Positions 5,410 to 21,715 of a DNA stretch of 24,284 nt are shown here, one piece after another. Under the pieces are notes generated by a model. That model saw only the letters and a list, made by a program, of their open reading frames with translations. It was not told where the DNA came from and did not search any database. Numbering within the stretch: the stretch's first letter is position 1; each line of letters begins with the position of its first letter. The position numbers were made by a program, and so were the translations under genes. Source of the stretch: a virus; IMG/VR virus record IMGVR_UViG_3300005531_000031, positions 1 to 24,284 of that record. One strand, written 5' to 3'.

Positions 5410-7552
5410 CCTCCAGCAGTTCCGCCTGCCGCCGCTGCCCCGCGCCGCCGAAGTGCGCGCGATCGCGGCCGACATCCTCGAGCCGCCGCCCGACATCGAC
5501 GTGGCTGAGGCCGCCGAGCTGCACCGACACCTGAGGAACCCCGGCGGCGGCTATTCCGGTCCGTGGCGCAACGCGATCGCGCCCTACCTGGTCGAGCCGA
5601 TGCGGGCCTGCACCGACCCCCGCTTCGGCATCGTGGTGTTCGTGGCGCCGGCGCAGTCGGGCAAGACCGAGATCGGGCTCAACTTCGCGGGCTACGCGAT
5701 CGAGACCGACCCGGCCGACTTCCAGATCGTGCTGCCCGAGAAGCAGCTCGCCGAGGATTTCTCGGCGCGCCGCATCGGCCGCATGATCGACGCCTCGCCG
5801 GCCTACGAAAAGCGGCTGAAGGAGCGCAAGACCTTCTCGGCGACGTTCGACCGCTGCATCGTCAACCTCTCCTGGCCGACCTCGACCAACGCCTCGTCCA
5901 AGCCGGTGCCGTGGAACTGGCTCGACGAGCGCGATTCCATGGCCGACGACGTCGACGGCGAGGGCGATCCGGTCGCGCTGTACGACAAGCGCTCGCAGAC
6001 CTTCGGGGCGCGGCGCAAGACGCTGGTCACCAGCTCGCCCAAGCGGCCGCCGAAGAAAGGCGCGCCCAAGCCCGTCGGTGCGCACGAAGCGCCGGCCTGC
6101 GACGGCGTGCTGGCCCTCTACAACGAGGGCACGCGCAAGTTCTTCTACTGGCCGTGCCGCGAATGCGGCGATTTCTTCGTCACCCGCGCCCAGGATCTGC
6201 AGTGGCAGCCCGGGGCGAAGTCGACCGACGAGCTGATCGAGGTGACCTTCGCCTGCCCGCACTGCGGCGGCGTGCACGGCGAGAGCGACCGGCGCGAGCT
6301 GTGGGCGCGCGGCGAATGGCGCGCCGAGGACGCCAGCCGCTTCACACGCATCGATTCCTACTGGCTGTTCGGGCCGCAGGCCAAGTTCATCACCCTCGAG
6401 GAGCTGGTGCGCAAGCGCCTACGCGCCGAGGAGAAGCTCGGCGCGATCGGCAGCGACACCGACCTGCGCACCTGGTGGAACGTCGACGCGGGCGAGGTTT
6501 ACTTCCCGGCGAGCGACGACGAGACCGGACTGGCGGCCGAGGATCTGCGCGCCGCGGCCAAGGAACTGCCGCTCGCGGTCATGCCGGAGCGCGCTTCGGT
6601 GCTGATGGCCTCGATCGACGTGCAGAGCGACCGCTTCGAGTTCCAGCTCACCGCCTTCGGCCGCGATTCCGAGTCCTGGCTGATCGATCACCAGCGCCTG
6701 GTCGCGGTCTCGAGCGACGGCAAGCCCATCACCACCGGCGGCGGCGCCGGCGGCGCGGTCAGCCTGCAGGGCAGCGAGCCCTGCGACCCCGCCCACCGCC
6801 AGGATCACTGGCAGGCCCTGGTGCCGGCGGTGTTCGATCGCGTCATCCCGCTCGAGCTGGACCCGGCCAAGGGCCTGACGCCGCTGATCGTGGTCATCGA
6901 TACCGGCGGCCCTTCGGGCGTCACCGACAAGGCCTACCGGTTCGCCCGCTGGCTGCGCCGCGAGCGGCCCGACATCGCCCCGCGCGCCATGTTCATCAAG
7001 GGCCGCGGCGGCCGCAATCCGGTGCGCGTGGCGCGGGCGCAGTGGGATCCCAAGATCACCGCGACGCGCCAGGCCAACCGCCGCGGCGTCGATCTCTGGC
7101 ACGTCTGGGTCGACGAGCTGAAGGACGCGGTCGCCGCGCGCCTGCGCCGCTTCGTGAAAAGCGGCGGCGAGCCCGGTCCCGACCGCCTGCATGTGTCGGC
7201 GCTGCTGCCGGAAGCGATCTTCCAGCAGCTCTGCGCCGAGACGCGCGACGGCGAGGAGTGGGTGAACGAGCGCCGCGTCTCCAACGAGGCGTGGGACCTC
7301 GCCGTCTATGCGCTGGCCGGCTGGCTGCGCAACAACGGCGACAAGATCGACTGGGACGACCCGCCGCGCTGGGCCCAGCCATCCGCGATGGCGACCCCCA
7401 CCAGCGCCGCCGCCAAGGCGAAAACGGCCGAGCGTCTCCCGGTCAAGCCTGCGCCGCTGGCTCCCCAACAGCCGGCGGCGCGGGCGCCCATTCCGTCCCG
7501 GCCGCCGCGAACGGGCGGCTGGGTGTCGGCCTTCATGCGTAGAGGATTCTAG
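5399..7552 (+). CDS. terminase large subunit, GpA family
   Basis: The 717-residue packaging motor cuts concatemeric DNA and pumps it into the prohead. The ATPase domain has a Walker A-type loop APAQSGKT (residues 83-90) and a Walker B-type WLDERD (174-179). A CxxC...CxxC pair (C253, C256, C286, C289) looks like a zinc-binding insertion, as in GpA-family terminases. The nuclease domain begins around residue 400 with the acidic strand ASIDVQSDRFEF (D407) and a second acidic strand ending in VVIDTGG (D501). Length and order match the lambda gpA family. It overlaps the small subunit by 11 bases and is followed with no gap by the head-tail joining gene. The last 60 residues are a proline/alanine-rich tail. 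Confidence 0.95.
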   Translation: MQLDLQQFRLPPLPRAAEVRAIAADILEPPPDIDVAEAAELHRHLRNPGGGYSGPWRNAIAPYLVEPMRACTDPRFGIVVFVAPAQSGKTEIGLNFAGYAIETDPADFQIVLPEKQLAEDFSARRIGRMIDASPAYEKRLKERKTFSATFDRCIVNLSWPTSTNASSKPVPWNWLDERDSMADDVDGEGDPVALYDKRSQTFGARRKTLVTSSPKRPPKKGAPKPVGAHEAPACDGVLALYNEGTRKFFYWPCRECGDFFVTRAQDLQWQPGAKSTDELIEVTFACPHCGGVHGESDRRELWARGEWRAEDASRFTRIDSYWLFGPQAKFITLEELVRKRLRAEEKLGAIGSDTDLRTWWNVDAGEVYFPASDDETGLAAEDLRAAAKELPLAVMPERASVLMASIDVQSDRFEFQLTAFGRDSESWLIDHQRLVAVSSDGKPITTGGGAGGAVSLQGSEPCDPAHRQDHWQALVPAVFDRVIPLELDPAKGLTPLIVVIDTGGPSGVTDKAYRFARWLRRERPDIAPRAMFIKGRGGRNPVRVARAQWDPKITATRQANRRGVDLWHVWVDELKDAVAARLRRFVKSGGEPGPDRLHVSALLPEAIFQQLCAETRDGEEWVNERRVSNEAWDLAVYALAGWLRNNGDKIDWDDPPRWAQPSAMATPTSAAAKAKTAERLPVKPAPLAPQQPAARAPIPSRPPRTGGWVSAFMRRGF

Positions 7553-8172: not shown

Positions 8173-9798
8173 ATGTGGCCCTTCACGCGCGCCGCGGCGC
8201 GCCGCGCCGCCGTCGAGCGCATCGCGCCCACGGTCAAGCTCCTGCCGGTGGCCCAGCAGGCCGGCAAGCGCAGCTTCGTGTCGGCGGTGCCGACCGAGCT
8301 CACCGCCGACCTGCCGACCTCGATCTTCGCCATCAACGCGGCGCTGCGGTACAACATCTACGCCATGCGCAGCCGCAGCCGCTGGCTGGCGCGCAACAAC
8401 GACTATTACCGCGAGTGGCTTCGCAGCCTGCGCCGCTCCGTGGTGGGCGCCAAGGGCTTCGGCCTGCAGCCCACCGTCAAGCAGCCGCCGGCGGCGAAGG
8501 CCGAGGCGGGAGCCAAGCCGCAGCCCGACGTCATGGCCAACCGGCTGATCCGCCAGGCCTTCGACGAGTGGAGCGGGGCGGCGACCTGCACGGTCGAGGG
8601 CAGCATGGATCGCCCGCACCTCGAGCGGCTCCTGATCACCCTGCTCGGGCGCGACGGCGAGTTCCTGCTGCGCAAGGTGCGCGGCGCCGACGTCGGCGGC
8701 CGCTTCGGCTACAGCCTTCAGGTCATCCCGATCGACCTGCTCGACGAGCAGCTCAATGTCGGCGTCGGCGGCGCGCCGCCGTCCAATCCCGGCGGCAACG
8801 TCGGCTGGGCGCAGGACCATGAGATTCGCATGGGCGTGCAGCGCGACAAGTGGAAGCGCCCGTTCGCCTACTGGCTGCGCACCTGGTACCCGGGCGACGA
8901 CCCCGGCATGGCGGCGTTCCAGAACGTCGGCCGCTGGCAGGTCGTGCCGGCCGACGAGATCGAGCACGTGTTCGAGCGCGAGGACGCGGCGCAGGCGCGC
9001 GGCTTTCCGCGCGCCGCATCGTCGATCACCCGGCTGAACCAGATCGGCGGCTACGAGGACGCCGTCGTCGTGGGCGCCCGCGTCGGCGCCTCGAGCATGG
9101 GCTTCCTCGAGGGCCAGAACACCGACGAGGTGAAGGGCGACACGACCGGCGCCGAGGGCGAGCTGCTGAACGAGGTCGTGCCCGGCACGGTCGCCAAGCT
9201 GCCCAATGGCGTCACCTTCAAGTCGTTCAATCCGAGCCAGCCCGCCTCGACCTACGCCGAGGGCCGCAAGGGCTTCCTGCGCGGCGTCGCGGCCGGCATG
9301 GGCGCCAACTACCACTCGATCGGCAAGGATTACGAGTCGGTCAACTTCTCCTCGCTGCGCGCCGCCGCCATGGACGACCGCGAGGAATGGAAGATCCTGC
9401 AGGACCTGCTGCTCGACATGTGGCGGCGCATCGTCAGCGACTGGCTCTCCCATGCGCTGCTGCGCGGCGCCATCAATCTGCCGCTCGGCAAGTTCGACAA
9501 GTTCAACGATTTCACGCTGCATCCGCGCGGCTGGGACTGGGTCGACCCGGTGGCCGAGATCACCGCCGCCGCCACCGAGGTGGCGCTGGGCGTCAAGAGC
9601 CGCCGGCAGATCTGCGAGGCGCGCGGCCTCGACTTCGACCAGATCATGGACGACCAGGGCGACGAGCTGCGCGTCGCTAAGAGCAAGGGCGTCGACCTCT
9701 GGCAGCCCGAGCCGCGCCTGCCCAAGGGCGTCACGGCGACCACGCCGCCGGAGACGGTGGCCGGCGCGCCGAAGCCTGTCGACCCGCCGGCGGCCTAG
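8173..9798 (+). CDS. phage portal protein, lambda gpB family
   Basis: The 541-residue protein forms the dodecameric ring at the packaging vertex. Recognisable features are the N-terminal helix RSRSRWLARNNDYYREWL (near residues 60-77), VVGAKGFGLQP, VIPIDLLDEQLN, a long IEHVFEREDAAQARGFP region near 256-280, and the stem-to-wing region with VNFSSLRAAAMDDRE, all typical of lambda-type portals. The C-terminal 30 residues are proline-rich and variable. ATG 8173 follows a strong AGGAGG at 8161-8166 that overlaps the stop of the previous gene. In lambda-type portals an internal protease region can be encoded separately; here the protease is instead in the capsid polyprotein. Confidence 0.92.
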   Translation: MWPFTRAAARRAAVERIAPTVKLLPVAQQAGKRSFVSAVPTELTADLPTSIFAINAALRYNIYAMRSRSRWLARNNDYYREWLRSLRRSVVGAKGFGLQPTVKQPPAAKAEAGAKPQPDVMANRLIRQAFDEWSGAATCTVEGSMDRPHLERLLITLLGRDGEFLLRKVRGADVGGRFGYSLQVIPIDLLDEQLNVGVGGAPPSNPGGNVGWAQDHEIRMGVQRDKWKRPFAYWLRTWYPGDDPGMAAFQNVGRWQVVPADEIEHVFEREDAAQARGFPRAASSITRLNQIGGYEDAVVVGARVGASSMGFLEGQNTDEVKGDTTGAEGELLNEVVPGTVAKLPNGVTFKSFNPSQPASTYAEGRKGFLRGVAAGMGANYHSIGKDYESVNFSSLRAAAMDDREEWKILQDLLLDMWRRIVSDWLSHALLRGAINLPLGKFDKFNDFTLHPRGWDWVDPVAEITAAATEVALGVKSRRQICEARGLDFDQIMDDQGDELRVAKSKGVDLWQPEPRLPKGVTATTPPETVAGAPKPVDPPAA

Positions 9799-10254: not shown

Positions 10255-10304
10255 GCCCCGCGCTCTCGGCCGCCCCACCAACCCCGCTCGCGCGGGGGCC
10301 CGAT
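10255..10304 (-). repeat. palindromic intergenic element, copy 1 (reverse orientation)
   Basis: This 50-bp element runs from GCCCCGCGCTC to GGGGGCCCGAT and is the reverse complement of the family form (see copies 2, 3, 4 and 6). On the transcript it can form CCCCGCGC/GCGCGGGG. The G-run at 10294-10298 is 4 bases from the ATG at 10303, which opens an alternative, longer start for the capsid polyprotein. It begins 4 bases after the stop of the 134-residue gene. Confidence 0.85.
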
Positions 10305-10317
10305 GAGGAGTTCCTCA

Positions 10318-12303
10318 ATGCCGGATGGTTCCGTAATTCGCATGAAGCGCCAGTATCGCAACGTCGTCGTTGCGCGCGGCGCGGTCGACACCGACAAGCG
10401 TACGGTGTCGGTGAGTTTTTCCTCCGAGGAGCCGGTCGAACGGTTCTTCGGTGATGAGATTCTGGGGCACCAGCCCGGAGAGGTGGACCTCTCCTTCATC
10501 GGCAGCGGGAACGCGCCGGTGCTGGTGAACCATGATCCCGACCGTCAGGTCGGGGTCGTCCAGAGCGCGACGGTGGCCAACGACCGTGGTCAGGCGGTGC
10601 TCCGCTTCGGCCAGGGCGACGCGGCCAGCGAAGTGTTCCAGGACATCGTCGACGGCATCCGCAGCAACGTCTCGGTCGGCTACGAGTACGACGAGATGGT
10701 GCTGGTCGCGGATGACGACGGCGACCGTTCGTACCGCATCACCAACTGGCGACCGCTGGAGATCTCCATCGTGGCCATTCCCGCCGACCCGACCGTCGGC
10801 GCGAACCGGGCCGGCGAGCAGGAGCGTGCCGTGCGCGTCGTCGAACCGCAAAAGGAGCAAAGGGCCATGCCCGAAGTCGTTCAGACCCCCCAGACCGTCC
10901 CGCCCACCGTGCCGCCGACGGTCGCCACTCCGCCCGTCAACCTCGACGAGGTGCGCAACCAGGCGCGCCAGCAGGCGCTCGACAGCGAACGCGAGCGAGT
11001 CAAGCAGATCAGCGAGCTCGGCGCCCGTCACAACCGCAGCGACCTCGCCCAGAAGGCGATCGCCGAGGGCAAGAGCTTCGCCGACTTCCAGGGCCTCATG
11101 CTCGAGGCGGTCGGCACCGCCAAGCCGCTGAACGCGATCCCGTCCGAGGTCGGCATGTCGGCGCAGGAGCGCAAGCGCTTCTCGCTGTGCCGCGCCGTGA
11201 TCGGCGCCGCCGATCGCGCCGCCGGCCGCAAGCCCGCGATCGACGACGCCTTCGAGATGGAGGTCAGCGACACCATCGCCAAGCGTCTCGGCAAGGCGCC
11301 GCGCTCGATCTACCTGCCGATGGACCCGTTCCTCGAGGGCGTGATCCCGGCCGGCCAGGAGCAGGCCGTGCGCATGGCGCTGATGGGCCAGCGCACCAAC
11401 CTCAACGTCGCCACCGGCAATGCCGGCGGCTACTTCGTCGCCACCGAGCTGCTCGCCGGCAGCTTCATCGATCTGCTGCGCAACCGCATCATGGTGGCCA
11501 CGATGGGCGCCACTTTCCTGCCGGGCCTGGTGGCCAACATCACCATTCCCAAGCAGTCGGGCGCCGCGACGGCGAACTGGCTGGGCGAGGGCAGCGCTGC
11601 CACCGAGTCCCAGCTCACCGCCGCGCTGGTGTCGCTGTCGCCCAAGACGGTGCATGCCATGACCGACTATTCGCGGGAAACGCTGCTGCAGAGCACGCCG
11701 GCGATCGAGGCGCTGGTGCGCTCCGACCTGATCGCCGTCATCGCCCGCGCCATCGATCTGGCGGCGCTGTCGGGCTCGGGTTCGTCCGGCCAGCCGACCG
11801 GGCTCGCCAACCAGTCCGGGCTCACCGTCGAGGCGGTCGGCACCAACGGCGGCACGCCGTCGTGGACCAACATCGTCAACATGGAAACCGACGTCGCCGC
11901 GGCCAACGCCGACTTCGGTTCGCTGGGCTACCTCACCAACGCCAAGGTGCGCGGCAAGCTGAAGCAAACGGCCAAGATCGGCTCGACCTATCCGGTGTTC
12001 ATCTGGGAGAACAACCCCGGCTATGGCCCCGGCTTCGGCGAGATGAACGGCATGCGCGCCGGCGTCTCCAACCAGTGCCGCAGCAACCTCACCAAGGGCA
12101 GCTCGTCGGGCGTGTGCTCGGAAATCTTCTACGGCAACTGGGCGGACCTGCTGATCGGCGAATGGGGCGTGCTCGACATGCTGGTCGACAACATCACCCA
12201 GGCGGCCAATCGCATCATCCGCATGCACGCCTACGAGACGGTGGACGTCAACGTCCGCCACATCGAGAGCTTCTCGTACTGCGCCGACGCCACGACGACT
12301 TAG
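10318..12303 (+). CDS. prohead protease / scaffold / major capsid polyprotein
   Basis: This 661-residue protein fuses an S78-type prohead protease to an HK97-fold major capsid protein. Protease residues 1-160 include NHDPDRQVG (candidate His72) and SNVSVGY (candidate Ser119), then PLEISIVAIPADP (E148). A linker rich in P, T and V follows, then a charged helical delta/scaffold-like region (about 205-275). The capsid domain begins around residue 340 (NVATGNAGGYFVATELLAG). ATG 10318 has AGGAG at 10306-10310, whereas ATG 10303 lies at the end of repeat copy 1. An internal ATG at 10867, with AAAGGAG at 10851-10857, would yield a protease-free product of 478 residues. The protease would cleave the scaffold part during maturation. 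Confidence 0.93.
   Translation: MPDGSVIRMKRQYRNVVVARGAVDTDKRTVSVSFSSEEPVERFFGDEILGHQPGEVDLSFIGSGNAPVLVNHDPDRQVGVVQSATVANDRGQAVLRFGQGDAASEVFQDIVDGIRSNVSVGYEYDEMVLVADDDGDRSYRITNWRPLEISIVAIPADPTVGANRAGEQERAVRVVEPQKEQRAMPEVVQTPQTVPPTVPPTVATPPVNLDEVRNQARQQALDSERERVKQISELGARHNRSDLAQKAIAEGKSFADFQGLMLEAVGTAKPLNAIPSEVGMSAQERKRFSLCRAVIGAADRAAGRKPAIDDAFEMEVSDTIAKRLGKAPRSIYLPMDPFLEGVIPAGQEQAVRMALMGQRTNLNVATGNAGGYFVATELLAGSFIDLLRNRIMVATMGATFLPGLVANITIPKQSGAATANWLGEGSAATESQLTAALVSLSPKTVHAMTDYSRETLLQSTPAIEALVRSDLIAVIARAIDLAALSGSGSSGQPTGLANQSGLTVEAVGTNGGTPSWTNIVNMETDVAAANADFGSLGYLTNAKVRGKLKQTAKIGSTYPVFIWENNPGYGPGFGEMNGMRAGVSNQCRSNLTKGSSSGVCSEIFYGNWADLLIGEWGVLDMLVDNITQAANRIIRMHAYETVDVNVRHIESFSYCADATTT
10851..10869 (+). 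promoter_or_regulatory. internal ribosome-binding site and ATG for a protease-free capsid product
   Basis: AAAGGAG (10851-10857) is the best Shine-Dalgarno match seen inside a gene here. It is followed after 9 bases by an in-frame ATG at 10867, which encodes residue 184 (MPEVVQTP) of the polyprotein. It falls exactly at the protease/scaffold border. Confidence 0.65.
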
Positions 12304-12319
12304 GCGCGAGGCGCTTAAG
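12299..12319 (+). repeat. hairpin across the capsid stop codon
   Basis: CTTAGGCGC (12299-12307) pairs with GCGCTTAAG (12311-12319) with one G-T wobble and a GAG loop. It includes the capsid stop codon TAG (12301-12303). Confidence 0.6.
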
Positions 12320-12335
12320 TCGATCCATCCCACAG

Positions 12336-12351
12336 GCGCGCGACTGCGCGC
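12336..12351 (+). repeat. short GCGCGC hairpin
   Basis: GCGCGC (12336-12341), a GACT loop and GCGCGC (12346-12351) form a 6-bp stem. It is the second of four inverted repeats in the gap behind the capsid gene. Confidence 0.45.
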
Positions 12352-12358
12352 ACTCTCA

Positions 12359-12382
12359 CTGCCGGCCCTTCGGGGCCGGCAG
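12359..12382 (+). terminator. 10-bp hairpin with TTCG tetraloop, no T-run
   Basis: CTGCCGGCCC and GGGCCGGCAG form a perfect 10-bp stem closed by TTCG (12369-12372), a very stable RNA loop. What follows is TTCCCC rather than a run of T, so it is not a classical intrinsic terminator. A pause, an RNA-stability element or a factor-dependent stop behind the highly expressed capsid gene is more likely. Confidence 0.55.
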
Positions 12383-12427
12383 TTCCCCATGACCACGGCC
12401 CGGGCGGCGCGTGGTCATCGGGAACTG
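12380..12427 (+). repeat. long inverted repeat overlapping the TTCG hairpin
   Basis: The 18-base arms 12380-12397 and 12410-12427 pair perfectly except for one C-C mismatch (12388/12419), around a 12-base loop. The arms are CAGTTCCC plus ATGACCACG and their complements. It shares 12380-12382 with the TTCG hairpin, so the two stems compete. The right arm ends 17 bases before the next ATG. Confidence 0.75.
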
Positions 12428-12444
12428 CAAACCGGGAGTTCACT

Positions 12445-13034: not shown

Positions 13035-13053
13035 TCACGACCGCAGCGGCCTC

Positions 13054-13102
13054 ATCGGGGCCCCGCATTCGCGGGGTTGGTGGGGCGGCTGCGAATGCGG
13101 GG
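13054..13102 (+). repeat. palindromic intergenic element, copy 2 (forward)
   Basis: The 49-bp element begins ATCGGGGCCCCGCATTCGC and ends GCGAATGCGGGG. Here the 12-base arms CCCCGCATTCGC and GCGAATGCGGGG pair perfectly, whereas the other copies have GC in place of AT in both arms, so the stem is kept by compensatory change. The closing GGGG (13099-13102) is 6 bases before ATG 13109. Confidence 0.88.
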
Positions 13103-13108
13103 TAACAG

Positions 13109-13420
13109 ATGGCCGTCGAGACTGACGACGATCGCGCGGCGCTGCTCGCCGACTTCGGCCAGGCGGGCAGCTATACGCACGCGGGCGCGACCGTCTCGAT
13201 GACCGGCATCTTCACCGGACCCTATGTCAGCCACGCGCTGGGGCACATGGGCGTCGAGTTCGAGGGCGGCAATCCCGCCTTCCTGGTGCGCTCGATCGAT
13301 CTGCCGGCCGGCGCGGTGCAGGGCGACACGCTCGTCACCGGCGGCACGACCTACAACGTGCGATCCGTCCAGCCCGATGGCACCGGCATGACCAAATTGG
13401 CCCTGGAGCTGATGTCGTGA
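13109..13420 (+). CDS. head-tail connector, gpFII-like
   Basis: The 103-residue protein has the order typical of lambda FII-like connectors: an N-terminal helix with DDDRAALLADFG, a β-strand pair around HAGATVSMTGIFTGPYV, and a C-terminal part with GDTLVTGGTTYNVRSVQPDGT. It would join the filled head to the tail tube. The start follows repeat copy 2 (G-run 6 bases upstream). The stop TGA at 13418-13420 abuts repeat copy 3. Confidence 0.65.
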   Translation: MAVETDDDRAALLADFGQAGSYTHAGATVSMTGIFTGPYVSHALGHMGVEFEGGNPAFLVRSIDLPAGAVQGDTLVTGGTTYNVRSVQPDGTGMTKLALELMS

Positions 13421-13467
13421 ATCGGGATCCCCGCGCGAGCGGGTTGGTCGGCGGCGCGAGCGCGGGG
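13421..13467 (+). repeat. palindromic intergenic element, copy 3 (forward)
   Basis: The 47-bp element starts directly after the stop codon of the connector gene. It opens ATCGGGATCCCCGCGCGAGC, has a central GGGTTGGTCGGCGGC, and closes GCGAGCGCGGGG. The final GGGG (13464-13467) is 5 bases before ATG 13473. CCCCGCGC pairs with GCGCGGGG. Confidence 0.88.
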
Positions 13468-13472
13468 CAAAC

Positions 13473-13922
13473 ATGACGACCCATGTCCGGCAACAGATCC
13501 GCGCCAAGGCCGTGTCCCTGTTGAGGGGCCTGGCCACGACCGGGCCCAACGTCTATCCCGGCCGCTCCTGGCCGACCGGCGCGGCACAGCTGCCGGCGCT
13601 GCTGGTCTACACCCGCACCGAGCAGGCGCAGGACGCCACGATGATGGCGCAGACCCTGCAGCTGCGCACGGTCGAGCTGGTGGTCGAAGGGCGCTGCCGC
13701 ACGGCGTCGCAGGAACCGGACGACGAGCTCGACGAGATCGCGCTCGAGGTCGAGACGGCGCTGCTGGCGTCGGGCGCCTTCGGCACGCTGATCAAGTCGA
13801 TCGAGCTCAAGCGCTCCATTTCGGCCTCGCTCGCCAGCCAGGACCGCCGCTCGGGCGAGATCGAGCTCACATTCGACATCGAGTACCTGACCGCGGCAGG
13901 CGCACCCGCGACGGCCCTCTAA
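13473..13922 (+). CDS. minor tail protein U-like / tail terminator
   Basis: This 149-residue protein has an N-terminal helix (HVRQQIRAKAVSLLRGL), then PNVYPGRSWPTGAAQLPALLVY and TVELVVEGRC, which fits the tail terminator (lambda gpU/DUF3168-like) proteins that cap the tail tube. A long acidic helix (EPDDELDEIALEVETALL) and a C-terminal strand follow. It lies between the connector and the tail tube, the right place for this role. The start is 5 bases after repeat copy 3. Confidence 0.65.
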   Translation: MTTHVRQQIRAKAVSLLRGLATTGPNVYPGRSWPTGAAQLPALLVYTRTEQAQDATMMAQTLQLRTVELVVEGRCRTASQEPDDELDEIALEVETALLASGAFGTLIKSIELKRSISASLASQDRRSGEIELTFDIEYLTAAGAPATAL

Positions 13923-13938
13923 ACTCAGGAGTGACAGA

Positions 13939-14322
13939 ATGGCCCTGCATCATGGCAAGGATGGCGTCGTCAAATCGGGCGCCAACGCGATCGCCTCGGT
14001 GACCGCGTGGAAGTTCACCGGCAAGATCGACCTCGTCGAATCGGCCGTCATGGGCGCGACCAACAAGACCTACCTCGAGGGCCTGACCGACTTCGACGGC
14101 ACGGTCGACTGCTACCTCGATCCGACCGACGCGACCGGGCAGGAGACGCTGACCGTCGGCGCGTCCGTCACGCTCACGCTCTATCCGCAGGGCGTGTCGG
14201 CGACGGCCAACTGGGTGATCAGCGCCATCATCACCCAGCTCGACGCGCAGGCCTCGATGACCGAGGTCGTCAAGCGGTCCTTCACCTGGAAGGCGACCGC
14301 TGCTCCGGCCTGGACGGCGTAA
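13939..14322 (+). CDS. major tail tube protein
   Basis: The 127-residue protein has the hallmarks of a tail tube subunit: ALHHGKDGVVKSGANAI, then SVTAWKFTGKIDLVES, ATNKTYLEGLTDFDG and a strand with TLTLYPQGV. The length is typical of small phage tail tube proteins. Hexameric rings would stack on the tape measure. ATG 13939 has AGGAG at 13927-13931 with a 7-base spacing. Strong hairpins follow the stop codon. Confidence 0.72.
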   Translation: MALHHGKDGVVKSGANAIASVTAWKFTGKIDLVESAVMGATNKTYLEGLTDFDGTVDCYLDPTDATGQETLTVGASVTLTLYPQGVSATANWVISAIITQLDAQASMTEVVKRSFTWKATAAPAWTA

Positions 14323-14325
14323 GAG

Positions 14326-14342
14326 CGCGAGCGAAGCTCGCG
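14326..14342 (+). repeat. 7-bp hairpin after the tail tube gene
   Basis: CGCGAGC (14326-14332), GAA and GCTCGCG (14336-14342) form a perfect 7-bp stem starting 4 bases after the stop. There is no T-run. Confidence 0.55.
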
Positions 14343-14357
14343 ACGGCGGGGAAAGCG

Positions 14358-14372
14358 CGACGCGCAGCGTCG
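14358..14372 (+). repeat. second hairpin between tail tube and chaperone genes
   Basis: CGACGC (14358-14363), GCA and GCGTCG (14367-14372) form a perfect 6-bp stem. Together with the 7-bp hairpin it fills the 91-base gap before the chaperone gene. It may trim transcript levels behind the abundant tube gene. Confidence 0.5.
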
Positions 14373-14413
14373 TCGCGACTCCGCTCGGCGCAGAATGAAC
14401 AGGGGAGGCTCGA

Positions 14414-14776
14414 ATGGAACCAAATGTGCTCGGCGAAGCGATCGCCGCCGCCGCCCGCGCCGATTTCGACGCGCGCGGCCTCGGCAAGGTCGAAGTGCCG
14501 GAATGGGCCGTCGCCGGCCAGCCGACCGTGATCTACTTCCGGCCGATGACGATCTCGGAGCAGTTCGAGATCTCGTCCTACCGCTCCGAGGACGGCCCCA
14601 AATACGGCATGGTCCGCACCATCGTGCTGAAGGCGCTCGATTCGGACGGCAAGCGGCTGTTCACCGTCGAGCACGAGCGCGTGTTCCTCGAGCAGGTCTC
14701 GTCCGACGTGGTCATGCGCGTCGCCACCGCCATCGCCAAGGGGGTGCCGGTCGGCGAGGCAAAAAAAGACTCCTAG
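14414..14776 (+). CDS. tail assembly chaperone, G-like (zero-frame product)
   Basis: The 120-residue zero-frame product lies between the tail tube and tape measure genes, the place of lambda G. Recognisable are the N-terminal helix NVLGEAIAAAARADF, FRPMTISEQFEISSYR, YGMVRTIVLKALDSDG and a C-terminal helix with VVMRVATAIAKGV. It probably coats the tape measure during tail assembly and is absent from the finished tail. It ends GEAKKDS at a TAG codon (14774-14776) just beyond the slippery A7. GGGGAGG precedes ATG 14414. Confidence 0.72.
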   Translation: MEPNVLGEAIAAAARADFDARGLGKVEVPEWAVAGQPTVIYFRPMTISEQFEISSYRSEDGPKYGMVRTIVLKALDSDGKRLFTVEHERVFLEQVSSDVVMRVATAIAKGVPVGEAKKDS

Positions 14777-14943
14777 CCGATCCAGATCGGCAGACCCTGT
14801 TCGCGCTGGCGGACAAGCTCCGCATGCTGCCCGGCGACCTCGCCCGGCGCCTCACCCGGACCGAGCTCGCCGAGCTGATCGCCTGGGAAGAAATCAAGCG
14901 CGAGCGGGACCAGCAGTCTGGCGATCTCGACGACCTCGAGTAG
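14414..14943 (+). CDS. tail assembly chaperone GT-type fusion by -1 frameshift
   Basis: A minus-one shift on A AAA AAA (14761-14767) extends the chaperone by 58 codons (14767-14943), giving 176 residues. The added part reads RLLADPDRQTLFALADKL, then TRTELAELIAWEEIKRERDQ and an acidic end. TEL-AELIAWE resembles the T-part of lambda-type GT chaperones. No independent start with a convincing ribosome site precedes this second frame. The T part would contact the tube protein while the G part binds the tape measure. Confidence 0.78.
14761..14791 (+). promoter_or_regulatory. -1 programmed frameshift site with downstream hairpin
   Basis: A7 at 14761-14767 is read as GCA AAA AAA GAC in frame zero, so the A AAA AAA heptamer fits the X XXY YYZ rule exactly. 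After an 8-base spacer, GCCGATC (14776-14782) and GATCGGC (14785-14791) form a hairpin, near the ideal distance for stimulation. The zero-frame stop TAG (14774-14776) lies at the spacer end. Confidence 0.85.
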
Positions 14944-14949
14944 CTGTTC

Positions 14950-14997
14950 ATCGGGGGCCCCCGCGCGAGCGGGTTGGTCGGCGGCGTGAGCGCGGGG
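14950..14997 (+). repeat. palindromic intergenic element, copy 4 (forward)
   Basis: This 48-bp copy starts ATCGGGGGCCCCCGCGCGAG, six bases after the stop of the chaperone fusion, and ends GTGAGCGCGGGG. The final GGGG (14994-14997) is 6 bases before ATG 15004. CCCCGCGC pairs with GCGCGGGG. Confidence 0.88.
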
Positions 14998-15003
14998 AAA
15001 AAT

Positions 15004-17292
15004 ATGGCCAACGAGACGTACGATTTCGCCCTGACCGCGCAGGATCTGTCGGGCCCGGCATGGCAGAGCCTCAAGCGCCAGGCGCAGGAAGCCAAGGCGC
15101 AGGTCGAGGCCATGGGCACGCCGCTGCAGGGCCTCGTGGGCTACGCCCAGCAGGCCAAGGCCGCGTTCGAGACCTTCATCGGCGCCGAGGTCGTGTCGCG
15201 CTTCCTCGAGTTCAACAACCAGGTCAAGGAAGCGTCGGCGCTGCTGGTGCGCCAGGCCGATGCGCTCGGCCTCAACACCGACCAGCTGCAGGCCTACCAG
15301 ATGGCCGCGCGGCACAGCCAGACCAGCACCGACGAGATGCAGAACATCCTCGCGGTGTTCAACGGCCGCATCGGCCAGGCGACGCAGGGCAACAAGCTGA
15401 TCATCGACGCCTTCAACCAGCTCGGCGTCAAGATCCTCGACGTGCACGGCCAGCTCCGGCCCTTCACCGACATCCTGACCGAGACGTCGCGGGCGCTGGT
15501 CGCCGAGTCCGATTCCTCGGTGCGCGCCGCGCTCACCAAGGAGCTGTTCGGCCGCGCCGCCCAGCAGGCGACGCCGCTCCTGCGCGAGCTCGCGCTCGGC
15601 GTCGAGGCGCTCGACCAGGCCAGCAAGCAGACCGGCCAGACGATCGACAAGGAAGCGATCGAGACCTTCCAGAAGCTCAAGGAGCGCAGCGAGCAGCTCG
15701 AGGCGCAGATCCGCTCGCTCTATGCCAGCTTCGCCGCGCCGATCCAGCTCACCGCGATGGAGAAGGTGACGGGCTGGATCGACCTGTTCCGCCAGAAGCT
15801 GCGCGATGCGAAAGCCGACTGGCTGACCTTCGTGGCGTTCCTCGCCAATCCCGGGGGAACCATCGGCGGCATTCTCGCCTCGCCGTCGCCGGTCGACCAG
15901 GCGCGCAAGCACATGGCCGATCTTCAGGGCCAGATCGACCGCAACCAGAGCGTCATCGATTCGACGCCCGACGCGCGCATCAAGGCGCGCCGGCAGCGCG
16001 AGAACGACGAGCTGCGCCGCCAGCTGCAGGACCTCGTCCAGCAGGCGGCCTCGGGACAGGGTGTCACCGACGCCATCAACAACATGGTCGGGCCGCCGCA
16101 GGCGGGACCAGACGTCGTGTTCGGCGGCACGACGAACCCGAAGCCCGTAGGAAGCGGCAGCAAGCGCGACCGCATCGGCGAGGAGCTGGCGCAGCTGCAG
16201 GGCCAGACGAAGGCGGCCGAGGAAGCCTTCAACCGGCTGAAGGCCGCGGCGCAGCAGGCGATCCCGCTCGCCGACCTGCAGCGCGAGGTCGACCTGCAGA
16301 AGCAGATCGGCGACGAGCTGGCGCGCATCGGCAAATACAACAAGGACGATCCGCGCATTGCGCAGGTCAAGCAGCTCGTCACCGCGCACGAGACATACAA
16401 CAGCCAGCTCAAGCAGCTCGAGGAGGCGCTCAAGACCGCCGACCAGACCGAGCGGCAATACGGCGACGGCCAGCTCGCCTTCCTCGAGCAGCAGAAAAGG
16501 CTGAACGACGCGCTCGACACCGGGCGCCTCTCGATGGACGCCTACAACCTTGCCATGAAGCAGCTCGCGCTCCAAACGGAGGAGACGCGGCTGAAGAACA
16601 TCGGCCTGCAGGGCGGCGTCGAGGGCCTCGCCGCCGGCTGGCAGTACGCCATGCTGCAGTACCAGCAGGCAGGCAAGTCGTTCCAGGACGGCCAGCAGCT
16701 CTTCCAGGGCATGCTCAACCTGATGGACCAGGGCGTGCAGCAGTTCGTCAGCAAGGGCAAGGTGAATTTCGACAGCCTGCTGGCGTCGTTCCTGTCGATG
16801 GTGGCGCAGATGGAGCTGAAGGCTGCGACCTCGCAGATCTTCAATGCGCTGGGCCTCGGCGGCGGTGGCGGCTCCGGCAGCGGAGGCGGCGGCATTCTCG
16901 GCGGCCTGCTCGGCCTGTTCGGTCTCGGCGGCAATTCAAATTCGGGCGGCTTCGCCACGGTCGGCTCCGGCGCCGGCGTCACCGACGGCGTGCCCAATTT
17001 CACGGGCATGGCCGGCGGCGGTCAGCCGCCGCTTGGCCAGGCGACCCTGGTGGGCGAGAACGGCCCCGAGCTGTTCGTTCCCAACTCGGCCGGCCAGGTC
17101 GTGAGCAACAAGGACCTGAGCGGCGGCGGCGACGGCGTGACCATTCGCCAGAACCTCGTGTTCGGCTCCGACGTCGATCGCGGCTGGCTGGAGAATCGCC
17201 TCGCGCGCCACAAGCAGGAGACGGTGGACGCCGTGCTCGCCGCCAAGCGTCAGGGCGGCCGCAAGATGGCCGCCGCGTTCGGCGGCAGGTAA
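15004..17292 (+). CDS. tail length tape measure protein
   Basis: The 762-residue protein has the coiled-coil-rich, Q/A/K-rich character of tape measures. The N-terminal part contains YDFALTAQDLSGPAWQSLKR and LGLNTDQLQAYQMAARHSQT. A long helical middle (about 210-560) includes EELAQLQGQTKAAEEAFNRL. The C-terminal part has a glycine-rich segment (GGGGGSGSGGGG near 620-632) and the characteristic VGENGPELFVPN (683-694). Its length sets the tail at roughly 110 nm if each residue spans about 1.5 Å (rule of thumb). ATG 15004 lies 6 bases after repeat copy 4. No protease or lysozyme domain is evident. Confidence 0.92.
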   Translation: MANETYDFALTAQDLSGPAWQSLKRQAQEAKAQVEAMGTPLQGLVGYAQQAKAAFETFIGAEVVSRFLEFNNQVKEASALLVRQADALGLNTDQLQAYQMAARHSQTSTDEMQNILAVFNGRIGQATQGNKLIIDAFNQLGVKILDVHGQLRPFTDILTETSRALVAESDSSVRAALTKELFGRAAQQATPLLRELALGVEALDQASKQTGQTIDKEAIETFQKLKERSEQLEAQIRSLYASFAAPIQLTAMEKVTGWIDLFRQKLRDAKADWLTFVAFLANPGGTIGGILASPSPVDQARKHMADLQGQIDRNQSVIDSTPDARIKARRQRENDELRRQLQDLVQQAASGQGVTDAINNMVGPPQAGPDVVFGGTTNPKPVGSGSKRDRIGEELAQLQGQTKAAEEAFNRLKAAAQQAIPLADLQREVDLQKQIGDELARIGKYNKDDPRIAQVKQLVTAHETYNSQLKQLEEALKTADQTERQYGDGQLAFLEQQKRLNDALDTGRLSMDAYNLAMKQLALQTEETRLKNIGLQGGVEGLAAGWQYAMLQYQQAGKSFQDGQQLFQGMLNLMDQGVQQFVSKGKVNFDSLLASFLSMVAQMELKAATSQIFNALGLGGGGGSGSGGGGILGGLLGLFGLGGNSNSGGFATVGSGAGVTDGVPNFTGMAGGGQPPLGQATLVGENGPELFVPNSAGQVVSNKDLSGGGDGVTIRQNLVFGSDVDRGWLENRLARHKQETVDAVLAAKRQGGRKMAAAFGGR

Positions 17293-17294
17293 CC

Positions 17295-17942
17295 ATGTCC
17301 GGGTCCGGTTTCACCTATCCGCTCGCCTTCCCGACCTACACGGGCGTCAAGGGCGCGACCATCCGCTACAACAAGGTGGTCGGGCAGAGCACCTCGCCGG
17401 GCTCGCTGGTGACGCAGGTCTATGAGTGGCCGGGCGAGCGCTGGGAAGCCGACATCCAGCTCCCGGTGATGACGCGCGCCAATGCCGAGCAATGGGCGGC
17501 GTGGCTGCTGTCGCTGCGCGGCCCGGTCGGCTCGTTCCTGATGGGCGATCCCTCGGGCGCCGTGCCGCGCGGGGCCGCTTCGTCGGCCTCCGGCTCGCCG
17601 ACGGTGTCCGGCACCAACAGTGCGCTGTCGCGCACGCTCGCGATCGCGACCACCGGGTTGGGCAGCGTGTCGAACTGGCTGCTGCCCGGCGACTGGATCC
17701 AGCTCGGCAGTGGCGCAACCACGCGGCTCTACAAGAACCTGACGGCGGCCAGCCTGGTGGCGAACGCCGTCACGCTCGACATCACGCCGCCGCTGCGCGT
17801 CGCGCCCAACCCCGGCGATCCCGTGGTCGTCTCCGGCGCGCTCGGCAAGTTCATGCTGAGCAGCGGCCAGGTGCAGCATGCGATCGACAATGCCCTGCAC
17901 TTCACGCCGGCGACGATCGCGGCGGTGGAGGATCTGCGATGA
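17295..17942 (+). CDS. tail-tip protein, lambda M position (distal tail type)
   Basis: The 215-residue protein directly follows the tape measure. It is β-rich, with TYPLAFPTYTGVKGATIRY, then QVYEWPGERWEADIQLPVMT, RANAEQWAAWLLSLRGPVGS and FLMGDPSG. The W-x-x-W-L-L-S-L-R-G-x-x-G-x-F pattern occurs in small tail-tip proteins that build the ring below the tape measure. I cannot place it in a named family with confidence. ATG 17295 is 2 bases after the tape measure stop, and its TGA overlaps the next ATG. Confidence 0.6.
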   Translation: MSGSGFTYPLAFPTYTGVKGATIRYNKVVGQSTSPGSLVTQVYEWPGERWEADIQLPVMTRANAEQWAAWLLSLRGPVGSFLMGDPSGAVPRGAASSASGSPTVSGTNSALSRTLAIATTGLGSVSNWLLPGDWIQLGSGATTRLYKNLTAASLVANAVTLDITPPLRVAPNPGDPVVVSGALGKFMLSSGQVQHAIDNALHFTPATIAAVEDLR

Positions 17943-18499
17943 GGTCCCTTACGGCGGCCATGCAGTCCGCCATCACCGGCGGTTCGGTCACCCTGGCGCT
18001 GCTATTCCAGGCGAGCTTCACCAGCGGCACGGTCTATGTCTGGACCGGCATCGGCAATCTCAACTGGAACGGCCAGATCTGGCAGGGCATCGGCACCCTG
18101 ATCGGCTTCGATCGCGTCGACGAGACCGACGACGTCAAGGCGCAGAGCGTGGTGCTGACGGTCAAGGGCGTCTCGCCGGCCGACGTGTCGACGGCGCTGG
18201 GCGAGCTCGCCAACGGTCAGGCCGGCCTGATCTATCTCGCCTGCTTCGACAATGCCGGCAATCTGCTGGCCAGCCCGCGCGTGATCTTCCGCGGCCGCCT
18301 GGACGTCGGCGAGATCGACGATTCCAACCCGCAGAGCCCCCAGATCAACCTCACCTACGAGCACGAGCTGGTCGACCTCGAGCGGCCGCGCGAATGGCGC
18401 TTCACGCACCAGCAGCAGCAGCAGCTCTATCCCGGCGACAACGGGCTGCAATACGTCGCCGGCCTGCAGGACGTGGAAATTACGTGGGGTCAAAATTGA
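17939..18499 (+). CDS. tail-tip protein, lambda L position (DUF2163-like)
   Basis: The 186-residue protein starts within the previous stop (ATGA). It contains LALLFQASFTSGTVYVWTG, GQIWQGIGTLIGFDRVDET and a strand series (VVLTVKGVSPADVS, VIFRGRLDVGEIDD) matching the pattern of hub-adjacent tail-tip proteins, with a 'Y/W-x-G-x-G-x-L' motif. A QQQQQ run lies near residue 160. The end (ITWGQN) is polar and bears no cysteine cluster, unlike lambda L. The family assignment is tentative. Confidence 0.55.
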   Translation: MRSLTAAMQSAITGGSVTLALLFQASFTSGTVYVWTGIGNLNWNGQIWQGIGTLIGFDRVDETDDVKAQSVVLTVKGVSPADVSTALGELANGQAGLIYLACFDNAGNLLASPRVIFRGRLDVGEIDDSNPQSPQINLTYEHELVDLERPREWRFTHQQQQQLYPGDNGLQYVAGLQDVEITWGQN

Positions 18500-18505
18500 T
18501 TTTTA

Positions 18506-18577
18506 GCCCCGCGCTCGCGCCGCCCGCCAACCACGCGCCAAGCTCCGCTTGCGCGGACTCGACGCGGGGGCCCCGAT
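18506..18577 (-). repeat. palindromic intergenic element, copy 5 (reverse, with 20-base insertion)
   Basis: The longest copy (72 bp) is the reverse complement of the family form but with about 20 extra bases in the middle that form a further hairpin (GCGCCAAGC, TCC, GCTTGCGC). The core CCCCGCG/CGCGGGG stem is kept. The last two bases of the element are the first two of ATG 18576, and the GGGGG run (18566-18570) is 5 bases before it. Confidence 0.8.
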
Positions 18578-18983
18578 GAGTGTACTCGCTCGAACGAACG
18601 GCTGGCTGCCGCGGCTCAACGCCTTCTTCCACGAGCATGCCGACACGCCGTTTGCCTGGGGCAGCCACGACTGCGTCACCTTCGCCGCCTCGGCGATCGA
18701 GGTGCAGACGGGGCGCCGCATCTGGGCGCCCGACTGGAAGAACGAGGACGAGGCCGTGAGGCTGGCTGTCTCGCTGCGCGGCCTCGAGGCGGCGGCGAGC
18801 GCGGTGCTCGGGCCGCCGATCTCGAACTGGCGGCTGGCCCGTATCGGCGACGTTTGTTTGGTGCGCAGTGAGGGCAAGCCCGCGCTCGCGGTATGTACGG
18901 GGCAGACCCTCGCGGGACCTGGACCGAAGGGGTTGAACCACCTGCCGCTCGATGCGGCCGAAAAAGTGTGGAGGGTGGGATGA
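18576..18983 (+). CDS. DUF6950/NlpC-P60-like tail-tip protein (lambda K position)
   Basis: The 135-residue protein contains FAWGSHDCVTFAA (residues 27-39) with Cys33, typical of the tail-associated NlpC/P60-type and DUF6950 proteins that may open peptidoglycan during DNA entry. A possible partner is His122 (LNHLPLD). The second half (GDVCLVRSEGKPALAVCTGQ) is β-rich, as in that family. I chose ATG 18576, fused to the repeat element, because residues before it look like the translated element. Alternative starts are 18549 or GTG 18579. Catalytic activity is unproven: the region is small and lacks a clear triad. Confidence 0.68.
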   Translation: MSVLARTNGWLPRLNAFFHEHADTPFAWGSHDCVTFAASAIEVQTGRRIWAPDWKNEDEAVRLAVSLRGLEAAASAVLGPPISNWRLARIGDVCLVRSEGKPALAVCTGQTLAGPGPKGLNHLPLDAAEKVWRVG

Positions 18984-18988
18984 CGCTC

Positions 18989-19035
18989 ATCGGGGTCCCC
19001 GCGCGACCGGGTTGGCCGGCGGCGCGAGCGCGTGG
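18989..19035 (+). repeat. palindromic intergenic element, copy 6 (forward, diverged)
   Basis: The 47-bp copy begins ATCGGGGTCCCCGCGCGACC and ends GCGCGAGCGCGTGG. One base in the closing run differs (GTGG), which breaks a pair in the stem. The run ends 7 bases before the GTG start at 19043. It follows the stop of the K-like gene by 5 bases. Confidence 0.82.
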
Positions 19036-19042
19036 CTAAAAA

Positions 19043-21715
19043 GTGCCGCCGGTCGTAGGCGCCCTGGTCACCGCCGCCCTGACTTCGACCCTCGGCGCCA
19101 CTCTCGCATCCGTCGTCGGCGCCGTCATCTCGGCCGCGCTGTCGTTCGTCGCCCAGGCGCTGCTGACGCCGCCCGCCTCGAGCGCGCAGCGCCAGAAGCC
19201 CGAGCGCCAGCCGATCGACAACAAGGTGACGATCCGCCAGCCCGCTGGCGCGCGGCCGATCGTCTACGGCAACACGCGCGTGGGCGGGACCTACGCCCTG
19301 ATCCATTCCGACCAGAACAACCAGAACCTCTACCTGGTGATCATGCTGGCCGGCCACGAGATCGAGGCGGTCGACCAGATCTGGTTCGACGATGCCATCC
19401 TGACCTTCGACGGGTCCGGCTGGGTGACGGGCGGCACCTGGGTCGGCCGCTCGCCGCCCGGCAACGACGTCACCAAGTTCAACAACCTCGCGCGCGTCAC
19501 CGTCCACCTCGGCACGCCGACGCAGGCCGCCGACGCCAATTTCCTGAGCGAGATCCCGAGCGTGTGGGACGCGACCTGCCGGCTGCAGGGCATCGCCTAC
19601 CTCGCCGTCAAGCTGGTGTGGAATGCCGAGACCTACAGCTCGGGCATCCCCAACATCACCGCCGTGGTGCGCGGCAAGAACGACATCTACGACCCGCGCA
19701 CGGCGACGACCGGCTACTCGAGCAATCCCGCGCTCTGCCTGGTCAACTATCTCTGCGATCCGACCTACGGCGTCGGGGTGAGCTATGCGAGCGGCATCGA
19801 CGAGCCGGCTCTGATCGCGGCGGCCAACGCCTGCGACCTGCAGGTGAGCGGCGGCGGCGCCAGCGGCAGCGGCACCGAGGCGCTGTTCTCGGCCGACGGC
19901 GCCTCGCTCAGCTCCGACACGCCGCAGGTCATCATCGGCAACCTGCTGGGCGCCATGCACGGCAAGGTGGCCTACGACGGCAATCTGTGGCGCGTGCTGG
20001 CTGGCGCCTACCAGACGCCGGACAACTCGTTCACCGACGACGACCTGCGCACCTCGAGCCGCGGGCCCAAGATCCAGACGCTGACGTCGCGCCGCGATCT
20101 CTTCAACTGCGTCAAGGGCACCTACATCGGCGCCGACCAGAACTGGCAGCAGGGCGATTTCCCGCCCCTGATCAGCCAGCCCTACATCACCGCCGACGGC
20201 GGCCTTCAGGTCTACAAGGACATCACGCTCGCCTACTGCAACTCGGCGACGCGCGCCCAGCGCATCGCCCAGATCGACCTTCTGAAGGCGCGCTGGCAGA
20301 TCGTGGCGACCATGCCATGCAAGCTCTCGGCCTGGCAGGCGCGCGCCGGCGACACGGTCTACTGGACCAGCGCGCGCTATGGCTGGACCAACAAGCCGTT
20401 CGAGGTGAGCGAGGCGCAGCTCACGATCGAGCACGGCAAGGAAGGCCCGCAGCTCGGCGTCGACCTGACGCTGCTCGAGACCGACCCGTCGATCTACAAC
20501 CCCTCAAGCTCCATCCTGGTGCTGCCGCCGGCCAGCGCGCACACCAACCTGCCCGACGCCATCAACGCCGGGCCGCCCAGCAATCTCAGTGCCACCGAGC
20601 AGCTCTACGTCGCGCGCGACGGCGGCGGCGTGAAGAACAAGGTGGTGCTGAGCTGGACCGCCTCGCCGGACGCCTTCGTGACGTCGGGCGGCGGCTACCT
20701 GGTGCAGTACCAGCTGCAGGGCGCGAGCTCGTGGATCTCGCTGCCGGTCACCAGCGCCACCTCGGCCGAGATCCCCGACGTCGCGCCGGGCACCTACAAT
20801 TTCCAGGTCGCCTCGGTGAACTGGGCCGGCAACGCCTCGACGCCGATCACGCTCGCCCAGGCGATCGTCGGCCTCAATGCGGCGCCGGTCACGCCGCAGA
20901 GCTTCTCGGTCAATGCCATCGGCGGCGCCGCGCTCTGCCGCTGGTCGCTGCCCACCGACCTCGACGTGCTGCAGGGCGGCTTCATGGTGATCCGCTTCTC
21001 GGGGCTCACCAGCGGCGCCACGTGGGACCAGGCGGTGTCGATCGGCGAGGCGGTGGCGGCCAATGCCATGGCCTGCGTTCTGCCGCTCAAGACCGGCACC
21101 TATCTCGCCAAGTTCCAGAACAGCAACGGCGTCTATTCGCTGTCGCCGGCGAGTTTCGTGTCGAGCCAGACCTCGATGTGGGCGTTCACGGCGCTGGGCA
21201 GCCTGGTCGAGAACCCGGCCTATGCCGGCGTCATGACAGGCGTGGCGCTCGATCTGGACGACGGCCACCTGAAGCTCGACAGCGCGCAGTCGTTCGACAG
21301 CGTGAGTTACGTCGACGGCATGGCGTCATGGGACTATCCGGGCGGCGTAGGGGCGAGCGGAACCTACGCCTTCCATGCGCCGCTCGACCTCGGCTCGGTG
21401 CAGTCCTGCCGGCTGACCTCCGTGCTCGCGACGCAGGTCTACGACGTGATGGACGAGTTCGACACGCGGCCGGGCGACGTCGACGACTGGCCGACATGGG
21501 ACGGCACCGTGACCGGTGAGGAATGCGACGCGCTCCTGACCGTGCAGACGACGCAGACCAACCCGTCGAGTTCGCCGACCTGGAGCAACGCGCAGCGGCT
21601 CGATTCGGCGGAGTTCAGCGCCCGCGGCTTCGAGTTCCTGCTCACGCTGTCGAGCAGCGACGGCAATTACAACATCGGCGTCTCGACCCTCGAGGCGATC
21701 GCGGAGGCTCCGTAA
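19043..21715 (+). CDS. tail tip attachment protein, J-like
   Basis: The 890-residue protein is the largest tail-tip protein. It begins at GTG 19043 with a hydrophobic N-terminal helix (LVTAALTSTLGATLASVVGA) and then PIVYGNTRVGGTY (near 73-85) and EIEAVDQIWFDDAIL, which mark the J-like hub of alphaproteobacterial-type prophages. The middle contains ITAVVRGKNDIYDPRT. Two fibronectin-III-like regions follow: about 507-611, with LSATEQLYVARDGGG and VVLSWTASPDAF, and 613-705. A final domain of about 175 residues (715-890) is β-rich and could be a receptor-binding part. The start codon is GTG, 7 bases after repeat copy 6. It abuts the fibre gene with no gap. Confidence 0.82.
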   Translation: MPPVVGALVTAALTSTLGATLASVVGAVISAALSFVAQALLTPPASSAQRQKPERQPIDNKVTIRQPAGARPIVYGNTRVGGTYALIHSDQNNQNLYLVIMLAGHEIEAVDQIWFDDAILTFDGSGWVTGGTWVGRSPPGNDVTKFNNLARVTVHLGTPTQAADANFLSEIPSVWDATCRLQGIAYLAVKLVWNAETYSSGIPNITAVVRGKNDIYDPRTATTGYSSNPALCLVNYLCDPTYGVGVSYASGIDEPALIAAANACDLQVSGGGASGSGTEALFSADGASLSSDTPQVIIGNLLGAMHGKVAYDGNLWRVLAGAYQTPDNSFTDDDLRTSSRGPKIQTLTSRRDLFNCVKGTYIGADQNWQQGDFPPLISQPYITADGGLQVYKDITLAYCNSATRAQRIAQIDLLKARWQIVATMPCKLSAWQARAGDTVYWTSARYGWTNKPFEVSEAQLTIEHGKEGPQLGVDLTLLETDPSIYNPSSSILVLPPASAHTNLPDAINAGPPSNLSATEQLYVARDGGGVKNKVVLSWTASPDAFVTSGGGYLVQYQLQGASSWISLPVTSATSAEIPDVAPGTYNFQVASVNWAGNASTPITLAQAIVGLNAAPVTPQSFSVNAIGGAALCRWSLPTDLDVLQGGFMVIRFSGLTSGATWDQAVSIGEAVAANAMACVLPLKTGTYLAKFQNSNGVYSLSPASFVSSQTSMWAFTALGSLVENPAYAGVMTGVALDLDDGHLKLDSAQSFDSVSYVDGMASWDYPGGVGASGTYAFHAPLDLGSVQSCRLTSVLATQVYDVMDEFDTRPGDVDDWPTWDGTVTGEECDALLTVQTTQTNPSSSPTWSNAQRLDSAEFSARGFEFLLTLSSSDGNYNIGVSTLEAIAEAP

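Follow-up and report, generated by a model that had tools for sequence, protein, structure and literature searches.

Short intergenic palindromes that occur in both orientations and have a variable centre are familiar in bacteria as repeats of the REP/BIME and MITE types. Among phages, the SAS of cluster K mycobacteriophages are 13-bp asymmetric boxes (GGGATAGGAGCCC) that contain AGGAG and lie 3–7 bp before starts; they are present in 11–19 copies at non-structural genes, almost always in one orientation, and are conserved between relatives (PMC3203893). Some SAS/ESAS repeats of this cluster have imperfect inverted repeats of 17 bp on the upstream side, and few or no copies of them occur in those host genomes that were checked (PMC3203893). 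Cluster O mycobacteriophages carry 17-bp dyad repeats in more than 30 copies, many of them intergenic and some within genes (PMC4351075). Phage-specific start-associated or palindromic repeats are thus already known from these two clusters.

The DNA analysed here (the window) is a 24,284-b record, obtained from environmental DNA, of an uncultivated virus of bacteria whose late operon is lambda-like. One hairpin-forming palindromic repeat of ~55 nt was found in six copies (E1–E6; table 1), all of them intergenic, at capsid-to-tail gene junctions and in both orientations. The approximate consensus in element orientation was TCATCGGGGNCCCCGCGCGAGCGGG(G)TTGGTCGG(GG)CGGCGCGAGCGCGGGGCNAAA. Palindrome arms were 8–12 bp long and mismatched in E6, E1 was 83% complementary to E2 across 53 nt, and the centre of E5 held ~23–30 extra nt with a GCAA-loop hairpin of their own. 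A profile HMM built from the six copies gave no significant seventh copy in the window. The elements occupied their gaps entirely, with ~0–15 nt remaining to the upstream stop as well, and since they are flush with stops too, their proximity to starts is a by-product of gap filling and gives no start-specific evidence. We consider it probable that E1–E6 are phage-confined, dispersed palindromic inserts; they would have pushed aside the signals by which the genes were once coupled, and would act today as makeshift leaders.

Table 1. Positions of genes, repeat copies and associated features (window coordinates, except for the L101 family, which is given in coordinates of that contig).
Feature	Position	Strand	Remarks
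Portal gene	start 8173		
Bbp16-like gene	start 9846, stop 10250		
Protease-capsid fusion gene	start 10303 or 10318		
FII-like head-tail gene	ATG 13109		
gpU-like (U-like) gene	ATG 13473		
Tape-measure gene	ATG 15004		
DUF6950 gene	ATG 18576		
Tail-tip J gene (putative)	GTG 19043		
E1	10256..10308	−	reverse copy; between Bbp16-like gene (stop 10250) and protease-capsid gene
E2	13050..13108	+	forward copy; before FII-like head-tail gene; 12-bp outer arms
E3	13421..13472	+	forward copy; before gpU-like gene
E4	14947..15003	+	forward copy; before tape-measure gene
E5	18500..18579	−	reverse copy; before DUF6950 gene; ATG 18576 comes from element end
E6	18986..19042	+	forward copy; before tail-tip J; G-run broken (GCGTGG)
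Capsid SD and alternative start ATG 10318	10306..10320	+	AGGAG (TGAGGAGTTCCTCAATG); in frame with 10303
Mini-ORF over E3	13417..13476	+	GTGA overlap with upstream stop, ATGA overlap with downstream start
Mini-ORF over E5	18496..18579	+	TTGA to ATGA
Mini-ORF through E6	18969..19039	+	TGGAGGGT SD, ATG 18980, 19 codons, TAA 3 nt before GTG 19043
L101 palindromic family	4290–4350	+	gene junction
L101 palindromic family	6553–6610	−	gene junction
L101 palindromic family	9060–9122	+	gene junction

The gene at 19043 was named J from its position and its homology to the tip proteins of relatives, by which it would be the tail-tip gene. Palindromes were present in two other long gaps, 12304–12443 and 14323–14413: the hairpin CCGGCCCTTCGGGGCCGG plus an imperfect palindrome of 50 nt in the gap that separates the capsid gene from the next small gene (12361–12428; no plasmid match), and two more GC-rich hairpins between the tail-tube and G-like genes (14323–14413). 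Late in the G-like gene there is an A-run (CAAAAAAAGAC) with an overlapping open frame to 14943 (14760–14943), an arrangement that fits the usual G/GT programmed frameshift.

No matches to E1–E6 were found in phages, a plasmid search returned one weak partial match (36 nt, E 0.04), and the one viral contig with the element was L003, from this same phage (100% over 13,195 nt). No host-genome repeat family of the REP/BIME kind was found: a single exact-pattern scan with the degenerate core gave four unrelated, single-copy, chance-like hits in 84,980 species genomes, and with a shorter core no genome was clearly enriched among 398 sampled, sets in which the phage's own host may be missing. Comparison of the terminase as a route to the host gave best matches of 34–35% only. 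Rfam families gave 0 matches above gathering score in the window. An intrinsic terminator was rejected from the A-rich tails after the forward copies and the absence of a T-run after the reverse copies. A MITE was also rejected: the element is palindromic, but by eye no target-site duplication flanked it at any of the six sites. As no such duplication and no mobilising enzyme or linked transposase was seen, transposition as the route of spread is unsupported.

Viral relatives were retrieved through J and then mapped (30–55% protein identity). Of the six junctions, those of E5 and E6, and that of E3 in one relative, were comparable. An in-frame start lay no more than 12 nt from the upstream stop in 27 of 31 relatives at the 17942/DUF6950 junction (E5 here) and in 21 of 27 distinct relatives at the DUF6950/J junction (E6 here), the stop/start signals often being TGATG or ATGA, and the FII/U junction (E3 here) was overlapping in the single scorable relative. 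The window has gaps of 76 nt (17942/DUF6950) and 59 nt (DUF6950/J), filled by E5 and E6, respectively. In many relatives, TGGAGGGT or a close variant was located at the end of the DUF6950 gene, directly before J; the window retains TGGAGGGT at 18969, 66 nt upstream of the present J start. J begins GTGCCGCCGGTC in the window and ATGCCGCCGGTG in the L012 counterpart, and the first residues MPPV are common to the window, L012, L013 and L014. These comparisons suggest that E1–E6 are insertions made in the lineage of this phage.

The nearest relative (L019, equivalent to L101; J 53% identity) and its sister L102, 98.2% identical to L101, carried an unrelated palindromic family in three copies (two forward, one reverse) with shared outer arms and a variable centre, at the FII/next, TMP/L and G-T/TMP junctions; inside these elements L101 and L102 showed few differences. 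A normal SD (AAAGGAG, CGGAGG) followed the L101 element at two of three junctions, so SD supply is not the common denominator. At L019 9774–9848, a near-perfect inverted repeat with arms of ~31 bp fills the DUF6950/J junction; this hairpin sits at the same junction as E6, has another sequence and is separate from the three-copy family.

According to the initial annotation, a G-run lies 4–7 bases before the start codon in all six copies. This held in five, in which G4 ends 4, 6, 5, 6 and 5 nt before ATG 10303, 13109, 13473, 15004 and 18576, respectively. It did not hold in E6, as the sequence upstream of GTG 19043 is GCGTGGCTAAAAA (GCGTGG), with no run of at least three G, and the E1 case is weakened by ATG 10318, which has AGGAG at the usual spacing and is probably the likelier capsid start than ATG 10303. 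G4 at such spacing was found for 2% of all start-like codons in the window; because E1–E6 are one repeated sequence, the five cases are not independent. The suggestion that the element G-run, a partial match to the anti-SD, can act as an SD was supported by 16S-tail duplex energies of −6.6 to −8.7 kcal/mol for E2–E5 versus a window median of −3.5, which would make it a moderate one, and the genes behind these copies have no other obvious SD. Most neighbouring genes without elements are preceded by AGGAG or GGAGG, and the tail-tube, G and capsid genes have canonical SDs. E1 and E5 have kept the G-run arm intact although in these copies it is the arm more distant from the next start, whereas E6, in which it ought to be used, has it mutated; its conservation thus follows the palindrome and not SD use.

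Base-pair probabilities were computed on the natural leaders with two flank sizes. Pairing of the G-run with the 5′ C-run of the same element (far stem), as had been proposed for every copy, was preferred in the E3 and E4 leaders (P ~0.9) and did not dominate in E2, E5 or E6. The E2 leader preferred the local hairpin, with the G-run partly open; in E5 and E6 neither structure was dominant, the G-run of E5 pairing mostly elsewhere and the run of E6 being mostly unpaired. The E1 leader was split between two stems, and as one downstream G-run is the partner in both the far stem and the local hairpin, the run is freed in neither state. The local CCCCGC/GCGGGG hairpin, which had been proposed to free the run by competition, was complete only in E1 and E2 (in E1 it buries the run); E3 and E4 have a shorter form of it, and it is disrupted in the other two copies. 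Among the predicted folds, no mutually exclusive SD-hiding and SD-exposing structures were common to the copies, and a two-state switch shared by all of them was not upheld: the copies differ, in that the far stem prevails in E3 and E4 and the local hairpin in E2, while E5 and E6 favour neither and E1 has no freed run.

Opening of the SD region was calculated to cost 2.1–11.4 kcal/mol in E2–E6, a range that includes the random median of 8.2. An alignment fold of the copies gave 11 pairs, of which 2 had changed on both sides, both in E2 only. These compensated pairs support complementarity of the arms, not a switch; a selected RNA or DNA hairpin and a decaying repeat fit them equally well.

At three junctions (E3, E5 and E6) the upstream gene ends in TGA, and in all three an NTG overlapping this stop begins a frame that runs across the element and ends at the next start or 3 nt short of it. 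The joint chance of such bridging mini-ORFs was ~0.01 in a random-phase simulation, the test having been picked after the pattern was seen, and the bridging at E3, E5 and E6 is suggestive in this post hoc sense. The strongest of the three is E6, since the old GGAGGG (−10.9 kcal/mol) serves its ATG 18980; the SD and the overlap position of this mini-ORF correspond to those at which J starts in relatives. The element is read in different frames in E3 and E6, and on that ground a conserved element-encoded peptide was rejected. The J start codon region is strongly paired and requires 13.8 kcal/mol to open. Within 19010–19060, the first J codons (GTGCCGCCGGTC) can pair with the central part of E6 (GGCCGGCGGCGC), to which they are complementary, and this pairing buries the J start unless the element is translated.

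If E1–E6 are inserts of this kind, the ~55-nt palindrome would have spread in both orientations into the late-operon junctions of this phage, where each insertion would have cut off the downstream gene from the SD and the overlapping stop/start that it originally had. The genes behind E2, E3, E4 and E5 would now be started from a weak, G-rich SD derived from the element and the capsid gene behind E1 from the native AGGAG adjoining it, and at E6 most clearly, possibly also at E3 and E5, re-initiation would follow a mini-ORF that begins where the old overlap was and reads through the element. The probable effect of the hairpins is to reduce or adjust the translation of morphogenesis proteins needed in low copy. 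It is unlikely that the family is instead a selected, SAS/ESAS-like regulatory repeat, a portable weak RBS with a hairpin that confers low expression and is perhaps bound by a host or phage factor. The FII-, U-, tape-measure-, DUF6950- and J-like genes that it precedes are expected to be of low copy, the tail-tube, G and capsid genes have canonical SDs instead, and cluster K repeats likewise lie 3–7 bp before starts, with inverted repeats upstream (PMC3203893); but the elements occur in both orientations and abut stops just as they do starts, the arm at the SD end is no better kept where it would be used, and the analogous L101 family supplies no SD at two of three junctions. A coupling-preserving mobile palindrome, with a weak RBS end and an in-phase mini-cistron, related phages repeatedly recruiting unrelated palindromes, is decidedly unlikely; were it true, late-gene translation would stay coupled after insertion.

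Strong, GC-rich, intercistronic hairpins such as these, together with the palindromes in the other long gaps (12304–12443 and 14323–14413), might also be mRNA processing or stability signals between late genes, as RNase III/E sites or 3′ stabilisers. We hold this to be very unlikely, because at the junctions compared most relatives have no gap large enough for a hairpin and the elements, with an A-run after or a T-run before the hairpin, are not intrinsic terminators. The least probable explanation is the switch, in which the 5′ C-run would hide the terminal G-run SD by pairing with it (off) and leave it free by pairing with a local G-run instead (on). The far stem predicted in E3 and E4 (P ~0.9), the local hairpin in E2 and the two compensated pairs in the far stem accord with it, but both E1 hairpins bury the same G-run and E1 also has its own SD, neither structure dominates in E5 or E6, E6 has no G-run, and the SD regions of the elements are not consistently harder to open than random ones. 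On the preferred reading, that of inserts which displaced the coupling signals, a compact phage operon can accommodate short palindromes inserted between genes that touch in relatives, and the locus provides a natural before/after case for the replacement of lost Shine-Dalgarno and stop–start coupling. The second, sequence-unrelated family in the nearest relative suggests that the insertion process has recurred.

The nearest known kind is the SAS/ESAS start-associated repeats of cluster K. Like these, E1–E6 are phage-confined, short and placed just before starts, part of the SAS having inverted repeats upstream. Unlike SAS, they lack AGGAG and have G4 only, in five copies, and they are whole palindromes, found in both orientations (E1 and E5 reversed) and at structural genes; beside the 17-bp inverted repeats of cluster K, their arms measure 8–12 bp, are mismatched in E6 and have another sequence. 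E1–E6 resemble the REP/BIME and MITE types as short intergenic palindromes in either orientation with a variable centre, but no REP tetranucleotide, target duplication or linked transposase was seen, nor, with the pattern searched, a matching family in 84,980 species genomes. The cluster O dyads, unlike E1–E6, are short, resemble protein sites, number more than 30 copies and lie in part inside genes; with them E1–E6 share the character of phage-specific, dispersed, intergenic palindromes.
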